In this document: positions 2,413-28,706 of the stretch, piece by piece
How the letters are laid out: each line of letters begins with the position of its first letter
Numbering within the stretch: the stretch's first letter is position 1
DNA from: Candidatus Gastranaerophilales bacterium
GTDB taxonomy: Bacteria; Cyanobacteriota; Vampirovibrionia; Gastranaerophilales; Gastranaerophilaceae
Length of the DNA: 34,072 nucleotides
Reading direction: 5' to 3'
Assembly: GCA_016287985.1 (NCBI GenBank)
Contig: JAEEXX010000008.1
Location: 1-34,072, forward strand
Made by a program: the position numbers and the translations under genes
The notes under the pieces: generated by a model
What the model was told of the DNA's origin: nothing
Seen by the model: only the letters and a program-made list of their open reading frames with translations
The model's database searches: none

Positions 2413-2514
2413 GACAAAATAATAAACACAACATTGCTTATCACATTCCCCCGATTGTGGAATAAAACTTTTACTCTCAATAAATACAATTTAATTGTTA
2501 GAAGTGAGGAGTAA

Positions 2515-4641
2515 ATGTTTTATAAGAAAAATTTTATTTCAATTTTATTATTAATTCTACTTATTATTAATCCAATTTCGGCAAAAGAATATAAGATTAC
2601 AAATACACCGCCGAATGATATTCAAGCTGTTGAAACGACGCAGGAATCCAGATATCCCGATTATGCAAAAATGTATGCGGGCGATGATAAATACGAAAAA
2701 TTTAACCGCAAAATGTTTAATTTGAATTCTCGTCTTAACAAATATATTGCGCGGCCAGTTCATATCATTTGGTCTTCAATTATGCCAAAATTCGGAATAG
2801 ACAGAATAAGAGACGTCTATAATAATATAGAATACCCTAAACGCCTTGCGAGCTGCATTCTTCAGAGAGATGGTCAGGGTGTAAAAATTGAAACGATGAG
2901 ATTTTTAACTAATACAACTTTAGGGTTAGGCGGTTTATTTGACCCTGCTGACAAGATTCTTAAAATAAAACCCACAAATGAAAATATGGAGCAGGCACTG
3001 TGTAAATGTAAACTAAACCAAGGTTCGTATCTGGTTATGCCGATTCTTCATTCATGTACACCTCGTTCCTTGTGTGGCAGAGCGCTTGAGGCTGCGTTAG
3101 ATCCATCGGTATATTTGGCTACACCTATTGTTTCAGCAATAAAGTTTGGTCTTATGTTAAACAGAACTTCTTACATGCAGCCTTTGGCACATATGATAGA
3201 AACAACATATGCTGACCCTTATGACATACACAAAAAACTGTTCGGATTGGAAAACTATATAAGAAATTCAAATCTTGACCGTAAAGATTTACTCGCCGAA
3301 GAAAAAGAGCTTGTTGACGAAGGAAAGTCCGAACTCGCTGAAGAACTGATTGCAGATATTGGTGATAAACCGGCGGAGGTGCATTCCGAAAAGATTATAG
3401 AACAAGTTATTCCGAATGTTTTAAATCCTGCGTTAAAGGATATTTTACCTGTAAATACGAATTCAGTTAATCCTGATATCGTTTTGGATAATTATAAACC
3501 TCAAACTCCTGTTGTTGATTCAATGCGAACGGCTCTTTTTGAAGATCCGAAAATCCATAAATCAATGTGGAACGAACTTTCAGTTTGGAATAGGAGTTTC
3601 TTTAAAAGAATCAAAACAGGCAAAGTTTTTGTAACGGAAAATAAGCCTGAATATGTTTATAAGTACATACTTCAAAAAGACAAAACTGCACCTTTAATAA
3701 TACTGTATCCTTCTATAGGAGAAGGCGCAGGAGCTCATCATTCCGAAGTTTTTGCAAAGAAGTTTTACGATGAAGGATATTCTGTTATCATGCAAGGGAG
3801 TCATTTCCATTGGGAATTCGTAAAAAGTATGCCTGATGGATATTCTCCCGGGTTACCTATTATTGATTCTGAGAAAGTACAGCATGTTACGTCAGAAATA
3901 TTAAAGGATTTGGAGAAAAAATATGATTGTAAATTTGAATCTAAAACGATTGTAGGAACATCTTTCGGAGCATTTGCTACACTATTTTTAGCAGATAGAG
4001 AAAGCAAAGAGCCTGTCATAAATGTACAAAAATCTATAGCCATAAGTCCTCCGATTGACCTTAAATATGCTATAAGTCAACTCGATAAAAACGGAGATGA
4101 GTTTGATAAAAATTCCGATGAAGTAAAACAAAAAACGGCGGTCACAGCAGCAAAGCTTTTGCAATTATATGAACTAAAAGATAGTGGTAAGCTTAATATT
4201 GAAACTATGCCTTTTTCCGACGAAGAGGGGAAAATGATTACAACTTTTATTCTCAGACAAAAACTTTCGGATTTAATTTTTGCACTTGAAAATGTACCTA
4301 AAAATAAAAAAACGGATATATATGAGATGATAAATAACATGAGTTATCGAGATTATGCAGAAAAATATTTGGGTATAACAAATTGGGAAGAAGATGATTC
4401 TAATACAGAAAATCCGAAAAAAACTTCGCTATATTCACTCTCTGCTTTTTTAACCGATAGTGATAATTACAGTATATATGAATCATTTGATGATTATTTT
4501 ATCAATAAAAATCAACTGATAAAATTAAAAGAGCTTACGGGCAAACATTTAAAATGTTTAAATTGCGGGGCACATTTGGGATATTTGTACAGAAAAGAAT
4601 TTGAAGAAAAACTTATTAGTGATATTAAAGGTGGAAGCTAA
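2515..4641 (+). CDS. MlaA-like phospholipid transport domain fused to alpha/beta hydrolase
   Basis: A 708-residue exported protein. Residues 1-23 form a signal peptide with a ISA|KE-type cleavage site and no lipobox Cys, whereas classical MlaA is a lipoprotein. Residues about 55-270 match MlaA/VacJ: FNRKMFNLNSRLNKYIARPV, RFLTNTTLGLGGLFDPADK and GSYLVMPI. After an acidic linker, residues about 380-708 form an alpha/beta hydrolase with nucleophile elbow GTSFGA (Ser483) and a terminal CGAHLGY carrying a likely catalytic His687. MlaA normally removes phospholipids from the outer leaflet of the outer membrane. The fused hydrolase suggests lipid or ester cleavage coupled to that step, which is inference. 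GAGGAG lies just before the start. The stop codon overlaps that of the convergent gene 4638-5189. Domain calls are firm; the acid residue of the triad is not placed. Confidence 0.8.
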   Translation: MFYKKNFISILLLILLIINPISAKEYKITNTPPNDIQAVETTQESRYPDYAKMYAGDDKYEKFNRKMFNLNSRLNKYIARPVHIIWSSIMPKFGIDRIRDVYNNIEYPKRLASCILQRDGQGVKIETMRFLTNTTLGLGGLFDPADKILKIKPTNENMEQALCKCKLNQGSYLVMPILHSCTPRSLCGRALEAALDPSVYLATPIVSAIKFGLMLNRTSYMQPLAHMIETTYADPYDIHKKLFGLENYIRNSNLDRKDLLAEEKELVDEGKSELAEELIADIGDKPAEVHSEKIIEQVIPNVLNPALKDILPVNTNSVNPDIVLDNYKPQTPVVDSMRTALFEDPKIHKSMWNELSVWNRSFFKRIKTGKVFVTENKPEYVYKYILQKDKTAPLIILYPSIGEGAGAHHSEVFAKKFYDEGYSVIMQGSHFHWEFVKSMPDGYSPGLPIIDSEKVQHVTSEILKDLEKKYDCKFESKTIVGTSFGAFATLFLADRESKEPVINVQKSIAISPPIDLKYAISQLDKNGDEFDKNSDEVKQKTAVTAAKLLQLYELKDSGKLNIETMPFSDEEGKMITTFILRQKLSDLIFALENVPKNKKTDIYEMINNMSYRDYAEKYLGITNWEEDDSNTENPKKTSLYSLSAFLTDSDNYSIYESFDDYFINKNQLIKLKELTGKHLKCLNCGAHLGYLYRKEFEEKLISDIKGGS

Positions 4642-7182: not shown

Positions 7183-7512
7183 TTAATTAACCAGTGAGGC
7201 TTCTTTAAATTTCTTCTCTTTTACCAGCAGAAATCTCTTTAAATCATTTGGGTGAACATGTTTTCTGCCGTGAGGTATTATTACAGGAATATTTAGGTTT
7301 TCAGTTACATTTACGATGGCATGTGAGCCGCGTTTTTTAATTACATAGTAGCCAATTTCTTCATACATTCTTTCAAGTTCATCAAATGTTATTTTTACCT
7401 TGTTTAGTTGTTCGGCCTTTTCCAGTTTTTCTATTAGCTTTTTGGATTTTGAACTTAAAAAAGTAGGAAATGAATTTGTAATAGTGCTGTTGTTTATAGA
7501 AATAATTCTCAT
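7183..7512 (-). CDS. HicA/YcfA-like small protein, no HicB partner
   Basis: 109 residues. The C-terminal two thirds resemble the HicA (YcfA) dsRBD-like toxin fold: EIGYYVIKKRGSHAIV contains the GSH catalytic signature, followed by IPVIIPHGRKHVHPNDLKRFLL, the usual helix after a PxH strand. HicA enzymes cleave mRNA and are normally paired with a HicB antitoxin, but no HicB-like gene lies beside it. It sits instead within a housekeeping gene train. It carries an N-terminal extension of about 40 residues that canonical HicA (60-80 residues) lacks. It may be a domesticated RNA-binding protein or an orphan toxin. No good ribosome site precedes the ATG. Confidence 0.6.
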   Translation of the reverse strand: MRIISINNSTITNSFPTFLSSKSKKLIEKLEKAEQLNKVKITFDELERMYEEIGYYVIKKRGSHAIVNVTENLNIPVIIPHGRKHVHPNDLKRFLLVKEKKFKEASLVN

Positions 7513-19383: not shown

Positions 19384-20015
19384 CTTCTAAGGCTGATTAT
19401 TGCTTGTTCTTCATCTTGAGTCAACAGTTTTGCACCACCAAGAATTTTTGTATTTAAAACGGTTTGAGCATAAGATTCCGCAAGTTCAAGTTTTAGGTAT
19501 GCATCTTCCATTGTTTTTGCCCCAACGATGAATCCATGGTTTTCCATTAATACTGCATCGTATTTGTCAAAATAGACAATTGTATTCTCAACCAGTTCTT
19601 TTGAAGAAGGAAGTGCATATTTAGCGAGTGGAATTCCTCCAAAGTAAAAAACATTTTCAGCCATAATAGGTTCCAACAAGTCTTTGCTTGCGGATGCAAA
19701 ACTGCTCAAAAATGGTGAATGTACGTGAATTATATAATTAATGTCAGGCCGTTTTTTATATATTTCAATATGCAAAAATTTTTCACTTGAAGGTTTTTTA
19801 CCTTTTTCCAAAGGGTTACCGTTAAAATCCGTATAAACAATATCCTTTGACTTCAAATATCCGTTTGCAGAACCGGAGGTTGTAATAAGCATTCCCTTTT
19901 TATATCTTGCAGAAATATTCCCTGAATACCCCGGTGTATAATTTTTTTCACCGCAAAGTCTCCCGTATCGGATGATTTTTTTTACCAGATTATTCTTGTT
20001 AAAACTAGAGAACAT
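19380..20015 (-). CDS. Class II aldolase/adducin family protein
   Basis: 211 residues from the ATG at 20015, preferred because AAGGA lies about 8 nt upstream; an ATG at 20033 is an alternative. The fold is that of fuculose-1-phosphate aldolase and methylthioribulose-1-phosphate dehydratase, zinc enzymes. Seen: GNISAR, TTSGSANGYL, PSSEKFLHIEIYKKRP, the metal HVHSPF pair and the later MENHGFIVGAKTMEDAY. The substrate cannot be named. It overlaps the 3' end of the LptD-like gene, an odd neighbour for a sugar enzyme, which may hint at a role in envelope sugar metabolism (inference). Confidence 0.85.
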   Translation of the reverse strand: MFSSFNKNNLVKKIIRYGRLCGEKNYTPGYSGNISARYKKGMLITTSGSANGYLKSKDIVYTDFNGNPLEKGKKPSSEKFLHIEIYKKRPDINYIIHVHSPFLSSFASASKDLLEPIMAENVFYFGGIPLAKYALPSSKELVENTIVYFDKYDAVLMENHGFIVGAKTMEDAYLKLELAESYAQTVLNTKILGGAKLLTQDEEQAIISLRS

Positions 20016-22161
20016 CTTCCGTATCCTTAACATTTTCTATGACAGCTTTGTCAAGAACCCGCGATTCGGTTGGTGCCAGATTCGGGTTAACTTTTGGTTG
20101 TTTTTCGGATTTTTTTGCTTTTTTGTCTTGTGTCAATTCAAATGTGTTATACTCAACGCTGGTACCTTTTGCATCCATCATGACTTCAAACGCTGCACGT
20201 AAAATCTGTCTTTCAAAGTCGTAGCCAAGGTGGAATTTAAAATCATCAGGACCTACTGATAAATAGAAAGTATTTTCCTGAACTCTTCTGTGGTTGATTG
20301 AATCGTTAGTTGTATTAATGTTTGTAAACCAAGAAACCGTAAGCCATCTGCATATTCTGAAATACTCCCTCAAATAAATATATTGTGAGCCGTATCTGTA
20401 TGCATCAAATCTTCTCATCGGGGTATTATCCTCATAAGCATTAAACAGATATCCTATATCCTGCATCCACCTTTTGTATTGAAAACTCATGCGAGGACCA
20501 AATTTTGCTACAACTTGAGTGTCACCTGTTCCGTACAAAGCTGTGGATAATTGTGATACAGCAGCGAGAGAAAATGCTTTAAGTTTTTCTCGGTTTTCAT
20601 ATTGAAACAAATTTTGGCTCATCATTGCCATATATCTGAAACGGGTAGTTCCCATTGTACCCCCTCGTCTTACTTTTTCAAAATGGGAGTCAAAATCCAA
20701 ATCGTGGAAATAACCTGCTTCAATTCTGTGCGAAAAAGAAGATGTCATGTTGGGAATTAAAAATCCTTTTGAGTTGTATGAATCTCTGTAAATAAGGGCA
20801 ACTCCGTATTTTGGACGACGTCTTCCCATAAACCATTCATCCATATAGCTATTCATTGAATAGTTTAATGTTAACCTATCATCAAGTTGTTGAGTACCTG
20901 AAACAAATATTTTACTTGCCGCAGTACCATATGCAGCTGTTGTTTCATTAGTTCCGCTGCTGAAACGTCCCATTAAACCTGCACCAAAACCTTCATTATA
21001 ATTCAGAATTGGCATAGCTTTCAATACTGAACCCTTTGGTAGTTCAAATACCCATCCTGGACCGGTATATAAACCTAATCCTCTGTAATAACCTAATTCC
21101 CAGAAATTTGTTTCGGCATAATCATGATTTTTGTTTGTATAAATCTTTACTGCCGGAATGTATAAAATTGCGTGATCCCCTTTAGATATTTTCCCTTTTC
21201 TTATCGAGAGTACTTCTAAATCGCCTTTTTGTTTTATTTTTATGGTATCTGCACGTAATTTGATAAGACCATTTTCCAATTCTTCAGACAATGTGTCTCT
21301 TGGAGGTGTCATCATTCTAACCATTCTCGGGCCGCGTCTGCCGGAACGAAATTCTATAGGGTAGTTGTCATTAATTTCCAAACTGCCCTGTTCTTGGACT
21401 ATTTTATCACCGTATACATATCCTTTTTTTGACTGTATAGCTATTGAATCTGAAGTTGTGACAGGATTTTCAATAAGGGCATTTTCTTCGTTCATATCAA
21501 CAAATATATAATCACCCGTTACAACTCTGCCACTTTTTACTATTCGAACATTACCTTCTGCTTTAATTGTATTATTTATTCTATCAAAAGTGAGAATGTC
21601 GGACTTAACAATAGTTTTTTGGTCAACAAAATTCACACTGACGTTCCCTGTTGCTTTAATCAAGTAATTTTGAGTATCGTAATCCACATTATCACAATCT
21701 AATATAATATTTTCACCGGGGTCATTATTAGTGGTAGTTTTATCTTTTTTCTTACCTTTAACTTTTTGTCTTCCGCTTTCTTCTATAGCTTCTTCATCAG
21801 CTTCAAATCCATCAGGAGCCATTTCTTCAAAGTTGTCATTTTCTTCTTTCGATACATATTTTGTAGTTCCGATTTCTTCGTTTTCATCTTGAATTTCAGG
21901 AGCCGTAGGTGCAAATTCATTATTTTTTGCAGCATTCTCTCTCAGTGTATCCTGTAATTCCAATCGTAATTTTTTTAACGGAGGGATTGTAGGATTAGAA
22001 ACATGACTTCTTTGTTTCTTATAGTAAGAATCTTGTCCGTAATTCGGTTCAAAAAAAGCGTCGCCAGTGAAATCAGCACCGTCTGCAAATTCAAAATCCG
22101 CTTGTGCAGCAACAGTTACAGATAAAAATATTATTAACGATGTGATTATTTTTCTTTTCAA
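20005..22161 (-). CDS. lptD: LptD/OstA-like outer-membrane protein
   Basis: 718 residues starting at TTG 22161, four nt after the M23 stop, with AGGA upstream. A signal peptide ends at AAQA|D. Residues about 145-270 form an OstA/LptA jelly-roll (LDCDNVDYDTQNYLIKATGN, ILTFDRINNTIKAEGNVRIV). The remainder is rich in short amphipathic aromatic strands (GYYRGLGLYTGPGWVFELP, RLTLNYSMNSYMDEWFMGRR and others) as in an outer-membrane beta barrel. LptD inserts lipopolysaccharide into the outer leaflet, so this supports a diderm, LPS-type envelope. Long acidic/Lys-rich linkers flank the domain near residues 60-140. The barrel sequence is divergent from the proteobacterial one, so the exact ligand is not proven. 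Confidence 0.8.
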   Translation of the reverse strand: MKRKIITSLIIFLSVTVAAQADFEFADGADFTGDAFFEPNYGQDSYYKKQRSHVSNPTIPPLKKLRLELQDTLRENAAKNNEFAPTAPEIQDENEEIGTTKYVSKEENDNFEEMAPDGFEADEEAIEESGRQKVKGKKKDKTTTNNDPGENIILDCDNVDYDTQNYLIKATGNVSVNFVDQKTIVKSDILTFDRINNTIKAEGNVRIVKSGRVVTGDYIFVDMNEENALIENPVTTSDSIAIQSKKGYVYGDKIVQEQGSLEINDNYPIEFRSGRRGPRMVRMMTPPRDTLSEELENGLIKLRADTIKIKQKGDLEVLSIRKGKISKGDHAILYIPAVKIYTNKNHDYAETNFWELGYYRGLGLYTGPGWVFELPKGSVLKAMPILNYNEGFGAGLMGRFSSGTNETTAAYGTAASKIFVSGTQQLDDRLTLNYSMNSYMDEWFMGRRRPKYGVALIYRDSYNSKGFLIPNMTSSFSHRIEAGYFHDLDFDSHFEKVRRGGTMGTTRFRYMAMMSQNLFQYENREKLKAFSLAAVSQLSTALYGTGDTQVVAKFGPRMSFQYKRWMQDIGYLFNAYEDNTPMRRFDAYRYGSQYIYLREYFRICRWLTVSWFTNINTTNDSINHRRVQENTFYLSVGPDDFKFHLGYDFERQILRAAFEVMMDAKGTSVEYNTFELTQDKKAKKSEKQPKVNPNLAPTESRVLDKAVIENVKDTEDVL

Positions 22162-22165
22162 AATA

Positions 22166-23287
22166 CTATGTTCCTATATAACTTAAAGGATTATTCGGCT
22201 GACCGTTAACCCTTACTTCAAAATGACAATGCGGTCCTGTACTGTACCCGGTAGTACCTTCATATCCAAGAACTTGACCTCTTTGCACTTTTGTACCATT
22301 CGCAACAGCAATAGAACTCATATGCGCATATAAGGTAGTTACAGGTTTACCATTAACCATTCCGTGTTCCACAATTACCACTTTACCATATCCGCCATAC
22401 CAGCCTGTGTAAATAACTTTACCTGAATTAGAAGCTTTTATGGCGCCTAGGTTTGGGCCTCCTATATCAACACCAGAGTGGAATGTTCTTGTATTAAAAA
22501 TAGGATGGGTTCTCCAACCGAATGGAGAGGTTATCCTACCCTGTATCGGTTTCATAAAACCAGCTGCAACCGTGACCTCAGGAGTTTTACTTGCAGTTCT
22601 GTTAATATAATTGCTCAACTGTTGCGATTGATGAGCTAAGTCTCTTTCCGCTTTTTGATAAGCAGCTCTATCAGTTCGGAGCTTATTTATCATATCTTCA
22701 TTTCTGGCAATGGCTCTTTTTATATAATCTTGCTGAGTATTCATAGAAGCGACCGAGCGTTCAAGATTACGTTTTCTCTTTTGAATATTATTTCTTATTG
22801 AAGCAATTTCTGCTGCTTTATTTCTTGCAGCAAGCATTCTTTCTTCATCTTGTTGTAGTATAACTTTTTGGTAGTACCACCTGTCAACAAGCATGTTAAT
22901 ATCATCCGAATTTAACAAAATTTGAAATCTTGCATTCCGCTGAGATTTATATGCATTTCTTATATGCTCAGCAAGAACTTGATTTAGACTGTTATATTCA
23001 GAAGATGCTACTGATAACCTTGACTCTAACTGGTACAATTTTTTCTGCATTTCTGCAATCTCTGACTTTGAAGTCGTTAAACTATTTGTCGCATTTTCCA
23101 GCTTTTGTTGATTTTTATATAACTTATTAGATTCAACCGTTTCCAACCATTTTAGCTTGTTAATTTTTTCCTTGGTTTCTTTTTGCTGTTTTGCAATGTC
23201 ATCCATGGCATAAGACTGAAGACTCCCAATAGTACTAACAGTGAGTGCAATAAATATTACTAAGTTTAGTATTCTTTTTAAGTTCAA
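22166..23287 (-). CDS. EnvC-like coiled-coil M23 peptidase
   Basis: 373 residues. Translation begins at TTG 23287, with AGGAGG 5 nt upstream; no in-frame ATG fits better. A signal peptide ends near QSYA|M, then about 200 residues of coiled coil (KEKINKLKWLETVESNKLYK onward), then a LytM/M23 domain: GRITSPFGWRTHP, FHSGVDIGGP (His and Asp zinc ligands), LYAHMSS and HCHFEVRVNG (HxH). With the zinc ligands intact it may cleave peptidoglycan cross-links itself, unlike E. coli EnvC, which only activates amidases. It is flanked by the LptD-like gene and a 34-residue membrane peptide. Confidence 0.9.
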   Translation of the reverse strand: MNLKRILNLVIFIALTVSTIGSLQSYAMDDIAKQQKETKEKINKLKWLETVESNKLYKNQQKLENATNSLTTSKSEIAEMQKKLYQLESRLSVASSEYNSLNQVLAEHIRNAYKSQRNARFQILLNSDDINMLVDRWYYQKVILQQDEERMLAARNKAAEIASIRNNIQKRKRNLERSVASMNTQQDYIKRAIARNEDMINKLRTDRAAYQKAERDLAHQSQQLSNYINRTASKTPEVTVAAGFMKPIQGRITSPFGWRTHPIFNTRTFHSGVDIGGPNLGAIKASNSGKVIYTGWYGGYGKVVIVEHGMVNGKPVTTLYAHMSSIAVANGTKVQRGQVLGYEGTTGYSTGPHCHFEVRVNGQPNNPLSYIGT

Positions 23288-24460: not shown

Positions 24461-26236
24461 TTATTCACCAACCGAAATGTAGCAATCTTTTCTCTTATCA
24501 ACATAAGTCGTGTGAAGAAGTTCGTGTGCCTTGTGAGAATTCGGTTTTTCCAAATGTTTTGAATACAAATCTTTGATTTCAGGATTCTCATGTGACTTTC
24601 TCCATTCGCCTTGAGCATCATCTGTATACAAACCTTGTGCCCTAAGTTCTTTTATATTGGAATCGTTGCAGCTTTGAGGTTGTCCGCCACCGTTGATACA
24701 TCCACCGGGACAAGCCATAACTTCAAGCATCTGATAATCAGCTTTGCCTTCCTTGATTTCTCTTATGCATTTTTCGGCTTCTTTCAGTGTATTAACGATT
24801 TTTACCTTAACTTTAGTTCCTTTAAGATCAAGCTCAACAGTCTTAACTCTATGAGTTCCCCTCATATCATTTATTACAACATTTTGAAGAGTTTCACCTG
24901 TTACAACTTCATAAGCTGTTCTTGCCGCAGCTTCAGCAACACCGCCTGATACACCAAAGATTGTACCTGCACCTGTGTATTTGCCGAACGGTGAATCAGG
25001 TTCTTCGCCTTCAAGAGACTTGAAATCAATACCTGCACCTTTTATCATTCTGCCAAGTTCTTGAGTTGTCAAAACGTAATCAATTTCTTGTCTGCCGTCA
25101 GCCATTTTAAATTGTTCACGTTTTGCTTCGTATTTCTTTGCCGTGCATGGCATTACTGAAACACTAACAATATTTTCTGAAGTAAATTCAGGATAGTATT
25201 GCGGAACGTACTCTCTGATAACAGCACCCAACATACCTTGAGGTGATTTACAGCTTGAAAGATGGTCAAGCATATCCGGGTGCTGAATTTCCAAAAATCT
25301 TACCCAGCCGGGGCAGCATGATGTAAACAGAGGTAATTTACCGCCATTTTTGAGTCTGTCGATGAATTCGTGAGCTTCTTCCATAATTGTTAAGTCAGCA
25401 GAGAAGTTTGTATCAAATACCAAGTCAAAGCCGATTTTCTTTAATGCAGCATTGATTTTCTTTGTTGAATTTACACCCGGTTCAAGACCAAACATTTCAC
25501 CAATCGCTACACGAACAGATGGCGCAAATTGAACAACAACTTTCTTGTTTGGATTTGTGATTGCATTCCAAACTTCATCAAGTTGTGTAGAATTAATCGT
25601 CAAAGCACCCGTTGGGCAAACTGCAGCACATTGTCCGCAATTGATACATTCACTCTTCGCAAGAGGCTTTCCTGCCATAGGTTCTACAACAGTCTTACTT
25701 CCTCTGTTTGCAAATCCCAAAACCTGCAAACCTTGATGTTCACTGCAAGCTCTTACGCAAGCTCCGCAAAGAATACATTTGTTATTGTCACGAATCAAAG
25801 CGCAAGAAGAATCATCAATCGGTGTTAATTCTTCTCTTTGAGCAAACTTCTTGACATTCTTTATACCATATTCTTCAGCATATTTTTGAAGTTCACAGTT
25901 ACCTGACTTATCGCAGGTTGTACATTCTCTGTCGTGGTTTGCAAGAAGAAGTTCCAAAACCATTTTTCTGATTTTACGAACTTTTTCTGTATTCAAATGC
26001 ACCTTTACTCCTGCTTCCGGAGGCATTGTACAAGATGAATTTATCATCCTTCTGCCATTTGGATACTCAACTTCCACAACACACATTCTGCATGCGCCGA
26101 AAGAAGTCAAATCAGGCCTGTAACATAATGTCGGAACACTCATTCCTGCTTTTCTTATTACTTCCAGAAGGTTGGGTTCGTTGGTAAATTCAACTTCCTT
26201 TCCTTCGATTATTAATGTTTTCTTTTCATCTGTCAT
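24461..26236 (-). CDS. hydA: [FeFe] hydrogenase catalytic subunit, NADH-linked trimeric type
   Basis: 591 residues. In order: an N-terminal [2Fe-2S] domain (Cys38, 49, 52, 69), the His-Cys3 [4Fe-4S] site (His101, Cys105, 108, 114), two ferredoxin clusters (CILCGACVRAC, CINCGQCAAVCPTGAL), then the H-cluster domain with the three signatures FTSCCPGWVRFLE, MPCTAKKYEAKR and EVMACPGGCINGGGQP, and a small-subunit-like C-terminus. All H-cluster cysteines are intact. The length fits HndD/A. woodii-type subunits without the extra C-terminal [2Fe-2S] of Thermotoga HydA. With HydB and HydC it should make H2 from NADH plus reduced ferredoxin (bifurcating type, inferred from subunit domains). Maturases HydEFG are not in the window. 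Confidence 0.95.
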   Translation of the reverse strand: MTDEKKTLIIEGKEVEFTNEPNLLEVIRKAGMSVPTLCYRPDLTSFGACRMCVVEVEYPNGRRMINSSCTMPPEAGVKVHLNTEKVRKIRKMVLELLLANHDRECTTCDKSGNCELQKYAEEYGIKNVKKFAQREELTPIDDSSCALIRDNNKCILCGACVRACSEHQGLQVLGFANRGSKTVVEPMAGKPLAKSECINCGQCAAVCPTGALTINSTQLDEVWNAITNPNKKVVVQFAPSVRVAIGEMFGLEPGVNSTKKINAALKKIGFDLVFDTNFSADLTIMEEAHEFIDRLKNGGKLPLFTSCCPGWVRFLEIQHPDMLDHLSSCKSPQGMLGAVIREYVPQYYPEFTSENIVSVSVMPCTAKKYEAKREQFKMADGRQEIDYVLTTQELGRMIKGAGIDFKSLEGEEPDSPFGKYTGAGTIFGVSGGVAEAAARTAYEVVTGETLQNVVINDMRGTHRVKTVELDLKGTKVKVKIVNTLKEAEKCIREIKEGKADYQMLEVMACPGGCINGGGQPQSCNDSNIKELRAQGLYTDDAQGEWRKSHENPEIKDLYSKHLEKPNSHKAHELLHTTYVDKRKDCYISVGE

Positions 26237-26276
26237 TTTATTTTTCCTTTTTTCTTATTACTAAATTACTGTTTTA

Positions 26277-26360
26277 GTTAATAAGTTAATAGGTTAATAA
26301 GTGAATAAGAAAAAGTTAAAAATCTTATTAACTTATTAACTTTGTTCTTATTAACCTATT
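26277..26360. repeat. 8-bp repeat array between hydB and hydA
   Basis: Units GTTAATAA, GTTAATAG, GTTAATAA and GTGAATAA in tandem (26277-26308) face three reverse-orientation TTATTAAC units (26325-26340 and 26348-26355). A 13-bp stem can form between 26289-26301 and 26347-26359, and the array runs into the hydB stop codon. The same family recurs at 33673-33791. Confidence 0.75.
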
Positions 26361-28209
26361 CTTTCCCTATTGCCTTGAAAGGACATGCATTCAAACAAGC
26401 CTCGCACTTGATACATTTAGACTGATCAATCTTGTGAGGATTTTTAACCGTTCCTTCAATCGCACCAACAGGACAAGTTCTTGCACATTTTGTACAACCT
26501 TTACACAAATCAGGATTGATTTGGATTTTCTTCATTGCGGTACAAACACCGGCAGGGCATTTGTGGTCACGAATGTGTGCAATATATTCATCTTTAAAGT
26601 ATTTTAAAGTTGAAAGTACAGGATTTGGAGCAGTTTTACCAAGACCGCAAAGAGAACCGTCTTTAACTGTCAAAGCAAGTTGTTCCAGCTTGTCTAAATC
26701 TTCCATTTCACCTTTGCCTGCAACAATCTTCTCTAAGATTTTAAGCATGTTTTTAGTACCTTCACGACAAGGAACGCACTTACCACAGGATTCATTCTTT
26801 GTGAAATTCATAAAGAATCTTGCAACTTCAACCATACAAGTATCTTCAGCCATTACAACCAAACCGCCTGAACCAACCATTGCGCCTGCTTTAATCAAAG
26901 AATCATAGTCCATAGAAATGTCAAGATGTTCTTCTGTTAAGCAGCCGCCGGAAGGCCCGCCGATTTGTACGGCTTTGAATTTCTTACCGCCTCTGATACC
27001 GCCTCCGATATCAAAGATAATCTGTCTTAAAGTTGTTCCCATCGGAACTTCTATAAGACCTGTATTGTTAACTTCACCTGTTAAGGCGAATGTTTTTGTA
27101 CCTTTTGATGTTTCACAACCCATTGATGAGAACCATTCAGCACCGTTCAGAATAATCAAAGGAACGTTGGCCAAGGTTTCAACATTGTTAATCAAAGTCG
27201 GTCTTCCGAACAAACCTTTGTTTGCAGGGAACGGCGGCTTCGGACGAGGCATACCTCTTTCCCCTTCTATTGATGCGATAAGAGCTGTTTCTTCACCGCA
27301 AACAAATGCGCCGGCACCTTCTTTTATATGGATTGTAAATGAAAAATCACTTCCCATAATATTTTTACCCAAGAAATGTTTTTCTTCGGCATCAGCAATA
27401 GCTTTTCTTAAACGTTTGATGGCAAGAGGATATTCTGCACGAACATATATATAAGCTTCGTCGGCACCAATTGCGAAACCTGCAATTGCCATACCTTCAA
27501 GAAGCTTATGCGGGTCGCCTTCCATGACTGAACGGTCCATAAATGCGCCAGGGTCGCCTTCGTCACCGTTACATACGACATAGGATTTGCCACCTCTGTT
27601 TGCAGCAGTAAATTTCCACTTCATACCGGTTGGGAAACCTCCGCCTCCTCTTCCTCTTAAACCTGATTTTGTAATTGTATCTATAACATTGTCAGGATTA
27701 TTTTCTTCAATAACTTTTGCTAAAGCTTCATAGCCTCTTACAGAAATTGCCTCTTCGATTGATTCTGCATTGATTTTACCGCAGTTCTTAAGAGCTGTAC
27801 GAGTTTGTTTAGCATAGAAATTAATGTCGTCATTTTTGTGAACAGCTTCACCTGTTTTCGGGTCTTTGTATAAAAGTCTTTCAACAGGTTTGTTATTTTT
27901 AACATGGCTTTCAAAGATTTCTTCGACATCTTCCACATGTACTTTGACATAAGTAACGTGTTTGTCCGGAATAATAACCAAAACACCTTGTTCGCAGAAA
28001 CCGTGGCACCCTGTCGGAACGATGGTTATTTTGTCATAATCGGTGAGTGTAGAAACATTTGCGCCGAGTTCTCTGAATTTTTCAATAACCTTCAAGGAAC
28101 CATTTGCAACGCAGCCTGTTCCTGCACAGACAAGAACTCTCAAGCCTTGTTCTTTAATATGTTCTTGAGCTTTTGTTTGCTCATCTTTAATATTTATATT
28201 CAATGTCAT
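26356..28209 (-). CDS. hydB: NADH-binding subunit of electron-bifurcating [FeFe] hydrogenase
   Basis: 617 residues. A thioredoxin-like [2Fe-2S] domain (CAGTGCVANGS, GCHGFCEQG) leads a NuoF-like core with NADH/FMN sites (GRGGGGFPTGMKW, YVVCNGDEGDPGAFMDR, GAYICGEETA-like GAFVCGEETA), then ESCGKCVPCREGT for a [4Fe-4S] cluster, and ends with two ferredoxin clusters (CKGCTKCARTCP, CIKCEACLNACP). This composition, with extra N- and C-terminal clusters, is that of HydB in HydABC enzymes. Its ATG overlaps the hydC stop by one base and follows a GAGGGGG ribosome site. A 119-bp repeat-bearing gap separates it from hydA. Confidence 0.95.
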   Translation of the reverse strand: MTLNINIKDEQTKAQEHIKEQGLRVLVCAGTGCVANGSLKVIEKFRELGANVSTLTDYDKITIVPTGCHGFCEQGVLVIIPDKHVTYVKVHVEDVEEIFESHVKNNKPVERLLYKDPKTGEAVHKNDDINFYAKQTRTALKNCGKINAESIEEAISVRGYEALAKVIEENNPDNVIDTITKSGLRGRGGGGFPTGMKWKFTAANRGGKSYVVCNGDEGDPGAFMDRSVMEGDPHKLLEGMAIAGFAIGADEAYIYVRAEYPLAIKRLRKAIADAEEKHFLGKNIMGSDFSFTIHIKEGAGAFVCGEETALIASIEGERGMPRPKPPFPANKGLFGRPTLINNVETLANVPLIILNGAEWFSSMGCETSKGTKTFALTGEVNNTGLIEVPMGTTLRQIIFDIGGGIRGGKKFKAVQIGGPSGGCLTEEHLDISMDYDSLIKAGAMVGSGGLVVMAEDTCMVEVARFFMNFTKNESCGKCVPCREGTKNMLKILEKIVAGKGEMEDLDKLEQLALTVKDGSLCGLGKTAPNPVLSTLKYFKDEYIAHIRDHKCPAGVCTAMKKIQINPDLCKGCTKCARTCPVGAIEGTVKNPHKIDQSKCIKCEACLNACPFKAIGKE

Positions 28210-28706
28210 TAGGCTACCCCCTCTTCCTTCATTAATGTATCAAGAATGACGCTGATTGCATCAGAGGTCATTTGAGGATAAACTTTGTCGTTTATCATAC
28301 AGACAGGAGCAAGACCGCAGGCGCCGAGGCAGCTTACAATTTCAAGTGAGAACAAGCCGTTATCACAAGTTCTTTGTCCTTCTTTAAGTTTCAATTTATT
28401 TTTGATTGCGTTCAATACCGGCATTGACCCACGAACGTGACATGCCGTACCGTCACATACTCTGATTTCATATTTCCCCTTTGGTTCTAATGAAAATTGA
28501 GCGTAAAATGTGGCTACACCATATACTGTTGCCGGTGAAAGTCCGTCAACGTGTTCACCTATGTAAGTCATAGCTTCTTCAGGCAAATATTTGTAAACTG
28601 CCTGAACATTTTGAAGCATTGCAATGAGGTAAGATTTTTTGTACTCATACTTCTTCAGGATATCCTCAATTACCTGAAAATCAATCTTCGTGCTTGTTAA
28701 TGTCAT
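28209..28706 (-). CDS. hydC: NuoE-like [2Fe-2S] subunit of the hydrogenase
   Basis: 165 residues, standard length. A helical N-terminal part (ILKKYEYKKSYLIAMLQNVQ, LSPATVYGVATFYAQF) leads the thioredoxin-like domain with four cluster ligands in CDGTACHVRGS and CLGACGLAPVCMIND. It passes electrons between HydB and HydA. It is the first gene of hydCBA, with AAGGAGAG before the ATG and a plausible promoter at 28747-28775. Confidence 0.93.
   Translation of the reverse strand: MTLTSTKIDFQVIEDILKKYEYKKSYLIAMLQNVQAVYKYLPEEAMTYIGEHVDGLSPATVYGVATFYAQFSLEPKGKYEIRVCDGTACHVRGSMPVLNAIKNKLKLKEGQRTCDNGLFSLEIVSCLGACGLAPVCMINDKVYPQMTSDAISVILDTLMKEEGVA

Follow-up and report, generated by a model that had tools for sequence, protein, structure and literature searches.

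In Pseudomonas aeruginosa, outer-membrane lipid asymmetry is served by the MlaY-MlaZ pair, PA3238-PA3239 (Guest et al., 2023, PNAS 120:e2302546120, as cited in PMC11131202, PMC11977310, and PMC12569750). Genetics indicate that lipid is removed by MlaZ and degraded by MlaY, and it has been proposed from the same kind of data that the phospholipid is handed directly from MlaZ to MlaY (PMC11131202, PMC12569750). Genetic evidence identifies MlaY as a lipase (PMC11977310, PMC12569750) and is the main basis for its activity (PMC11131202, PMC11977310, PMC12569750); its catalytic triad consists of Ser187, His415, and Asp388 (PMC11977310). According to a 2023 survey, MlaABC are totally absent in diderm Terrabacteria, the absence of MlaA accompanying that of Lol (PMC10665443). 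Likewise, outer-membrane lipoproteins are described as lacking in diderm Terrabacteria in another report (PMC11784454).

The present analysis concerns a stretch of 34,072 nucleotides (the window) from a genome of the order Gastranaerophilales, in which an MlaA domain and an MlaY-type alpha/beta hydrolase are encoded by one gene. The Gastranaerophilales are non-photosynthetic Cyanobacteriota, and the host is a gut member of this order.

The fused gene and its surroundings

The features of the fused gene and of its product are listed in Table 1. Stop codons crowd the strand opposite the ORF.

Table 1. Positions within the window of the fused gene and of the features of its product.
Feature	Position	Strand	Evidence
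Fused gene, MlaA domain and MlaY-type alpha/beta hydrolase, ATG start, 708 aa	2515..4641	+	Profile match, AlphaFold2 model, Foldseek, full-length relatives
Probable ribosome-binding site, GAGGAG region directly 5′ of the ATG	2503..2512	+	Sequence reading
Signal sequence resembling type I, about aa 1-23, with ISA preceding KEYK, without lipobox	2515..2583	+	Probable cleavage site, judged by eye
MlaA domain PF04333, aa 57-243	2683..3243	+	Profile match, Foldseek
Variable linker of low confidence, about aa 264-317	3304..3465	+	pLDDT below 50 at aa 280-316; gappy alignment
MlaY-type alpha/beta hydrolase half, aa 318-708	3466..4638	+	AlphaFold2, Foldseek, profile comparison
Nucleophile elbow GTSFGA, aa 481-486, with Ser483	3955..3972	+	Ser invariant in 61 of 61 sequences
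Helical lid, about aa 511-650	4045..4464	+	AlphaFold2 model; aligns with the MlaY lid
Asp660 codon, predicted catalytic acid	4492..4494	+	Invariant in 61 of 61 sequences; aligned to MlaY Asp388
His687 codon, predicted catalytic residue	4573..4575	+	Invariant in 61 of 61 sequences; aligned to MlaY His415

No conserved operon was found around the fused gene, its neighbours in the window recurring in at most two of the 80 related loci. As read from their sequences, three genes at 24461-28706 (-) resemble those for HydA, HydB, and HydC of an electron-bifurcating [FeFe] hydrogenase, and an LptD/OstA-like protein is encoded next to an EnvC-like peptidase at 20005-23287 (-). The latter two genes are consistent with an outer membrane that bears LPS. 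A small ORF at 7183-7512 (-) is similar to a HicA-type toxin.

An MlaA domain without a lipobox

The N-terminal half matches the MlaA profile PF04333 (E 8.6e-39; 133.6 bits, the cut-off being 25), a profile that is also matched in all 11 of the relatives compared, and the same residues match MlaA chains of the PDB in a sequence search. In the AlphaFold2 model, pLDDT in this region is approximately 63-92, and Foldseek retrieves the MlaA structures 5nur, 5nuo, and 8i8r (TM 0.77-0.78, at about 25 % identity). Together, AlphaFold2 and Foldseek predict the helical ring fold of MlaA for this half of the protein. None of 60 relatives carries a lipobox, and a hydrophobic signal sequence is found in all 60, in agreement with the original prediction that the lipobox had been replaced by a type I signal peptide.

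The MlaA halves from the Gastranaerophilales form one clade on a long branch; the tree neither supports nor rejects its grouping with MlaZ rather than with canonical MlaA (p-AU 0.28). Four MlaY-linked MlaA (MlaZ) proteins share a SPFEYE motif close to the C-terminus, which is our own reading of those four sequences and not a published criterion; this motif is missing from the MlaA half of the fusion. At this place the fusion protein shows ADPYD, with an ADPY motif like that of canonical MlaA.

A hydrolase half homologous to MlaY

For residues 318-708, no significant sequence match was obtained in Pfam, NCBIfam, or the PDB, profile searches included. The AlphaFold2 model, built from 61 sequences, has a pTM of 0.79, with pLDDT mostly at 90-97 in the hydrolase core. 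The strand order in the model is that of a canonical alpha/beta hydrolase, Ser483 following beta5, Asp660 following beta7, and His687 following beta8, and all three residues are identical in each of the 61 sequences. Searches with the model in Foldseek returned many alpha/beta hydrolases of diverse activities, including a bacterial membrane phospholipase A (6i8w), and a library of viral structures yielded only generic alpha/beta hydrolases. The original prediction had described an MlaA domain fused to an alpha/beta hydrolase with a GTSFGA nucleophile elbow at Ser483 and a C-terminal histidine, His687. With both the MlaA ring and the hydrolase fold predicted by the model, and with both of these residues invariant, that description holds, and Asp660 can be added as the acid that it had left unnamed.

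When profiles were compared by hhalign, the hydrolase half matched Pseudomonas MlaY with an E of 4.9e-20 and an alignment of four MlaY members with an E of 9.9e-28, over 318 columns that include the lid; two unrelated alpha/beta hydrolases, used as controls, gave E values of 0.22 and 0.11. Ser483, Asp660, and His687 line up with Ser187, Asp388, and His415 of MlaY; in the MlaY-type protein of Fusobacterium, the position of Asp388 is occupied by Glu. By these alignments, homology of the hydrolase half to MlaY extends across both core and lid and is specific with respect to other alpha/beta hydrolases. Identity between the two is about 23 %, at which the substrate may differ from that of MlaY. 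An early guess from a GxHLG motif, that this was a YheT/ABHD-like hydrolase, was abandoned on finding the MlaY match.

With the hydrolase half alone as a tblastn query, four of 72,556 records in a plasmid collection were matched, three from P. aeruginosa and one from Fusobacterium vincentii, and an independent search with the MlaA half placed an mlaA gene next to the hydrolase in all four. In one P. aeruginosa record, genes annotated as 'alpha/beta fold hydrolase' and 'VacJ family lipoprotein' lie 3 bases apart; a second record carries no annotation for the hydrolase, which was matched as two segments and is followed directly by the VacJ gene. On the basis of gene order and the papers on MlaYZ, the Pseudomonas pair in these records is probably PA3238 and PA3239. 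The hydrolase and mlaA ORFs of Fusobacterium overlap by 29 bases. Using the Pseudomonas hydrolase as the query added two Skermanella plasmids with the identical arrangement; mlaA is directly downstream of the MlaY-type hydrolase gene in all six records from Pseudomonas, Skermanella, and Fusobacterium. On the two Skermanella plasmids (L163:2339-7266 and L164:2330-7212), mlaY-mlaZ are flanked on one side by an RND efflux permease gene together with a hypothetical gene and on the other by a TamB-domain gene, whose product is a candidate for carrying phospholipid the opposite way.

Distribution of the fusion

Matches were found in 95 of the 192 genomes of the order, one of which is a short remnant, and the fusion is therefore present in 94. 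Three of the matching genomes belong to a second family of the order (f7). Full-length fusions are 44-64 % identical and are spread over many contigs and assemblies, and in a scan of genome contigs Gastranaerophilales-like MAGs were among the best 80 matches listed.

Across a sample of 386 genomes of the phylum, MlaA is found in 93, all inside the Gastranaerophilales, and the full hydrolase domain is restricted to MlaA-bearing genomes. The MlaA is part of an ORF of at least 650 aa in 92 of these. In the 93rd (G134), positions 2-26 of the hydrolase profile are on one contig and 26-384 on another, as would be expected from a contig break. Since the MlaA and hydrolase domains co-occur only in fused form, their linkage is obligate within the phylum sample and the fusion is old.

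Approximately half of the 192 genomes are without the fusion while retaining LpxC (present in 191 of 192) and MlaE (present in all 192), and the gene is therefore dispensable. The presence of LPS synthesis was considered as a cause of the patchy distribution and rejected; with LpxC in nearly all genomes, it leaves the absence of the fusion unexplained. Weak, short matches to the fusion were seen in two genomes that otherwise do not have it, one of 60 residues of the hydrolase (G180:C13:332-514) and one of 77 residues with a single TGA (G131:C2:215168-215398). Each is possibly a decaying remnant.

Envelope genes of the host

Neither MlaC, above the cut-off, nor PldA was found in any of the 192 genomes of the order. 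LolA exceeds the cut-off in two of the 192, weakly, and was not found in the genome that carries the window. The absence of a lipobox in the relatives fits the missing Lol pathway, as without Lol there would be no route by which an MlaA lipoprotein could reach the outer membrane. The fused gene is an exception to the absence of MlaA from diderm Terrabacteria, and not to the absence of MlaC, Lol, or outer-membrane lipoproteins.

The original prediction had raised the question of MlaFEDB homologues. MlaE, MlaF, and MlaD homologues are present in the genome: on another contig, one mlaE is clustered with an mlaF-like ABC gene and an mlaD that encodes a 450-aa MlaD (L116:4007-6905, G000:C126). A second MlaE (L118:1274-2011) and a second, shorter MlaD (L117:4598-5272) are each encoded apart from the others.

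Proposed function and alternatives

It is proposed, with a probability of roughly three in four, that the single chain is a natural lipid-asymmetry system of the MlaZ-MlaY type. Phospholipid would be extracted from the outer leaflet by the MlaA ring, in a protein probably located at the outer membrane without a lipid anchor. The hydrolase, held at the periplasmic face by the flexible linker, would take the lipid by direct hand-off and, as a putative phospholipase, cleave it at the Ser483-Asp660-His687 triad. Extraction and disposal would require neither ATP nor a lipid anchor, and the cleavage products would be recycled, perhaps via the MlaEFD importer. Because the host is without the MlaC shuttle and without PldA, the fusion would extract and dispose of the lipid alone. 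Coupling of lipid removal to cleavage in one periplasmic polypeptide, as originally suggested, is supported as a reading; it fits all of the evidence and has in MlaZ-MlaY a genetic precedent that the original prediction did not name. A wider claim is favoured on balance, with less confidence: that this is an unlipidated, extract-and-destroy form of MlaA, which would clear the outer leaflet by passing lipid from the ring to the attached phospholipase, independently of retrograde transport, in a lineage without MlaC, Lol sorting, or PldA.

Other functions can be envisaged for the hydrolase. The MlaA ring could take outer-leaflet phospholipid for an acyltransferase, which might, for example, move one of the acyl chains of that lipid onto a different acceptor, or the attached enzyme could be an esterase or deacylase of some other envelope lipid. 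Transferases and esterases, too, are built on the alpha/beta hydrolase fold and a Ser-His-Asp triad, the Foldseek matches extend over many activities, and identity to MlaY is low; however, the homology over core and lid is specific to MlaY, itself a lipase by genetics (PMC11977310, PMC12569750), and such an activity is considered unlikely. It is quite improbable that MlaA instead passes intact lipid along a retrograde route to MlaEFD, with its long MlaD, the hydrolase standing in for MlaC in a lipid-holding or regulatory role with little or no catalysis. Conservation of the triad in 61 of 61 sequences is hard to explain without catalysis, and half of the genomes have MlaE but not the fusion, although in the hosts MlaE, MlaF, and a long MlaD do occur without MlaC, and a hydrolase with a lid could retain a lipid.

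There is very little chance that the fusion is an artefact of annotation or assembly, or the joining by chance of unrelated neighbours with no shared function. The two genes are separate in Proteobacteria and Fusobacteriota, but there the identical two partners are adjacent, and among related genomes a single ORF always holds both domains. The occurrence of full-length fusions, 44-64 % identical, in 94 of the 192 independent genomes, with the second family included, together with the exclusively fused form in the phylum, refutes a gene-fusion artefact, which the original prediction had named as a possibility.

The function of the MlaZ and MlaY pair is already known, and therefore so is the kind of system proposed here for the fused protein. 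No description was found, in the passages of the literature consulted, of a fused MlaA-hydrolase, of such a protein as the sole MlaA, of MlaA in the absence of MlaC, or of MlaA in Terrabacteria. A natural fusion that is the only form of MlaA in the order provides independent evidence for direct coupling of channel and enzyme, and a single-chain protein lets the transfer from channel to enzyme be seen and tested. An MlaA without a lipid anchor, LolA, or MlaC is also an exception to the association of MlaA with Lol, as given in the 2023 survey (PMC10665443). If the proposal is true, a self-contained, fused MlaA runs counter to the idea that only Lol-bearing bacteria have MlaA.

Comparison with known systems

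The fusion shares PF04333 membership and the ring fold, here predicted, with canonical MlaA (VacJ), which acts with MlaC and MlaFEDB in Proteobacteria. It differs in having no lipobox and an attached enzyme, and in belonging to an order of Cyanobacteriota without MlaC. The mlaE-mlaF-mlaD cluster of the host, with its 450-aa MlaD and no MlaC, is like the MlaEFD of the Veillonella type with a long MlaD; that system, however, is described in the survey as being without MlaA (PMC10665443), which the fusion host has. Like PldA (OMPLA), the fusion would destroy mislocalised phospholipids, although PldA is an outer-membrane beta-barrel that is active in the outer leaflet.

The closest likeness is to MlaY-MlaZ, which also combines an MlaA-family protein with an alpha/beta hydrolase, periplasmic in P. 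aeruginosa. The hydrolases are homologous, with an identical triad, and Pseudomonas MlaZ is likewise without a clear lipobox. There, however, the two proteins come from adjacent genes in the order hydrolase-MlaA, whereas the fusion is one polypeptide in the order MlaA-hydrolase, and P. aeruginosa has in addition canonical MlaA, MlaC, and MlaBDEF, whereas the fusion host has neither MlaC nor any other MlaA.
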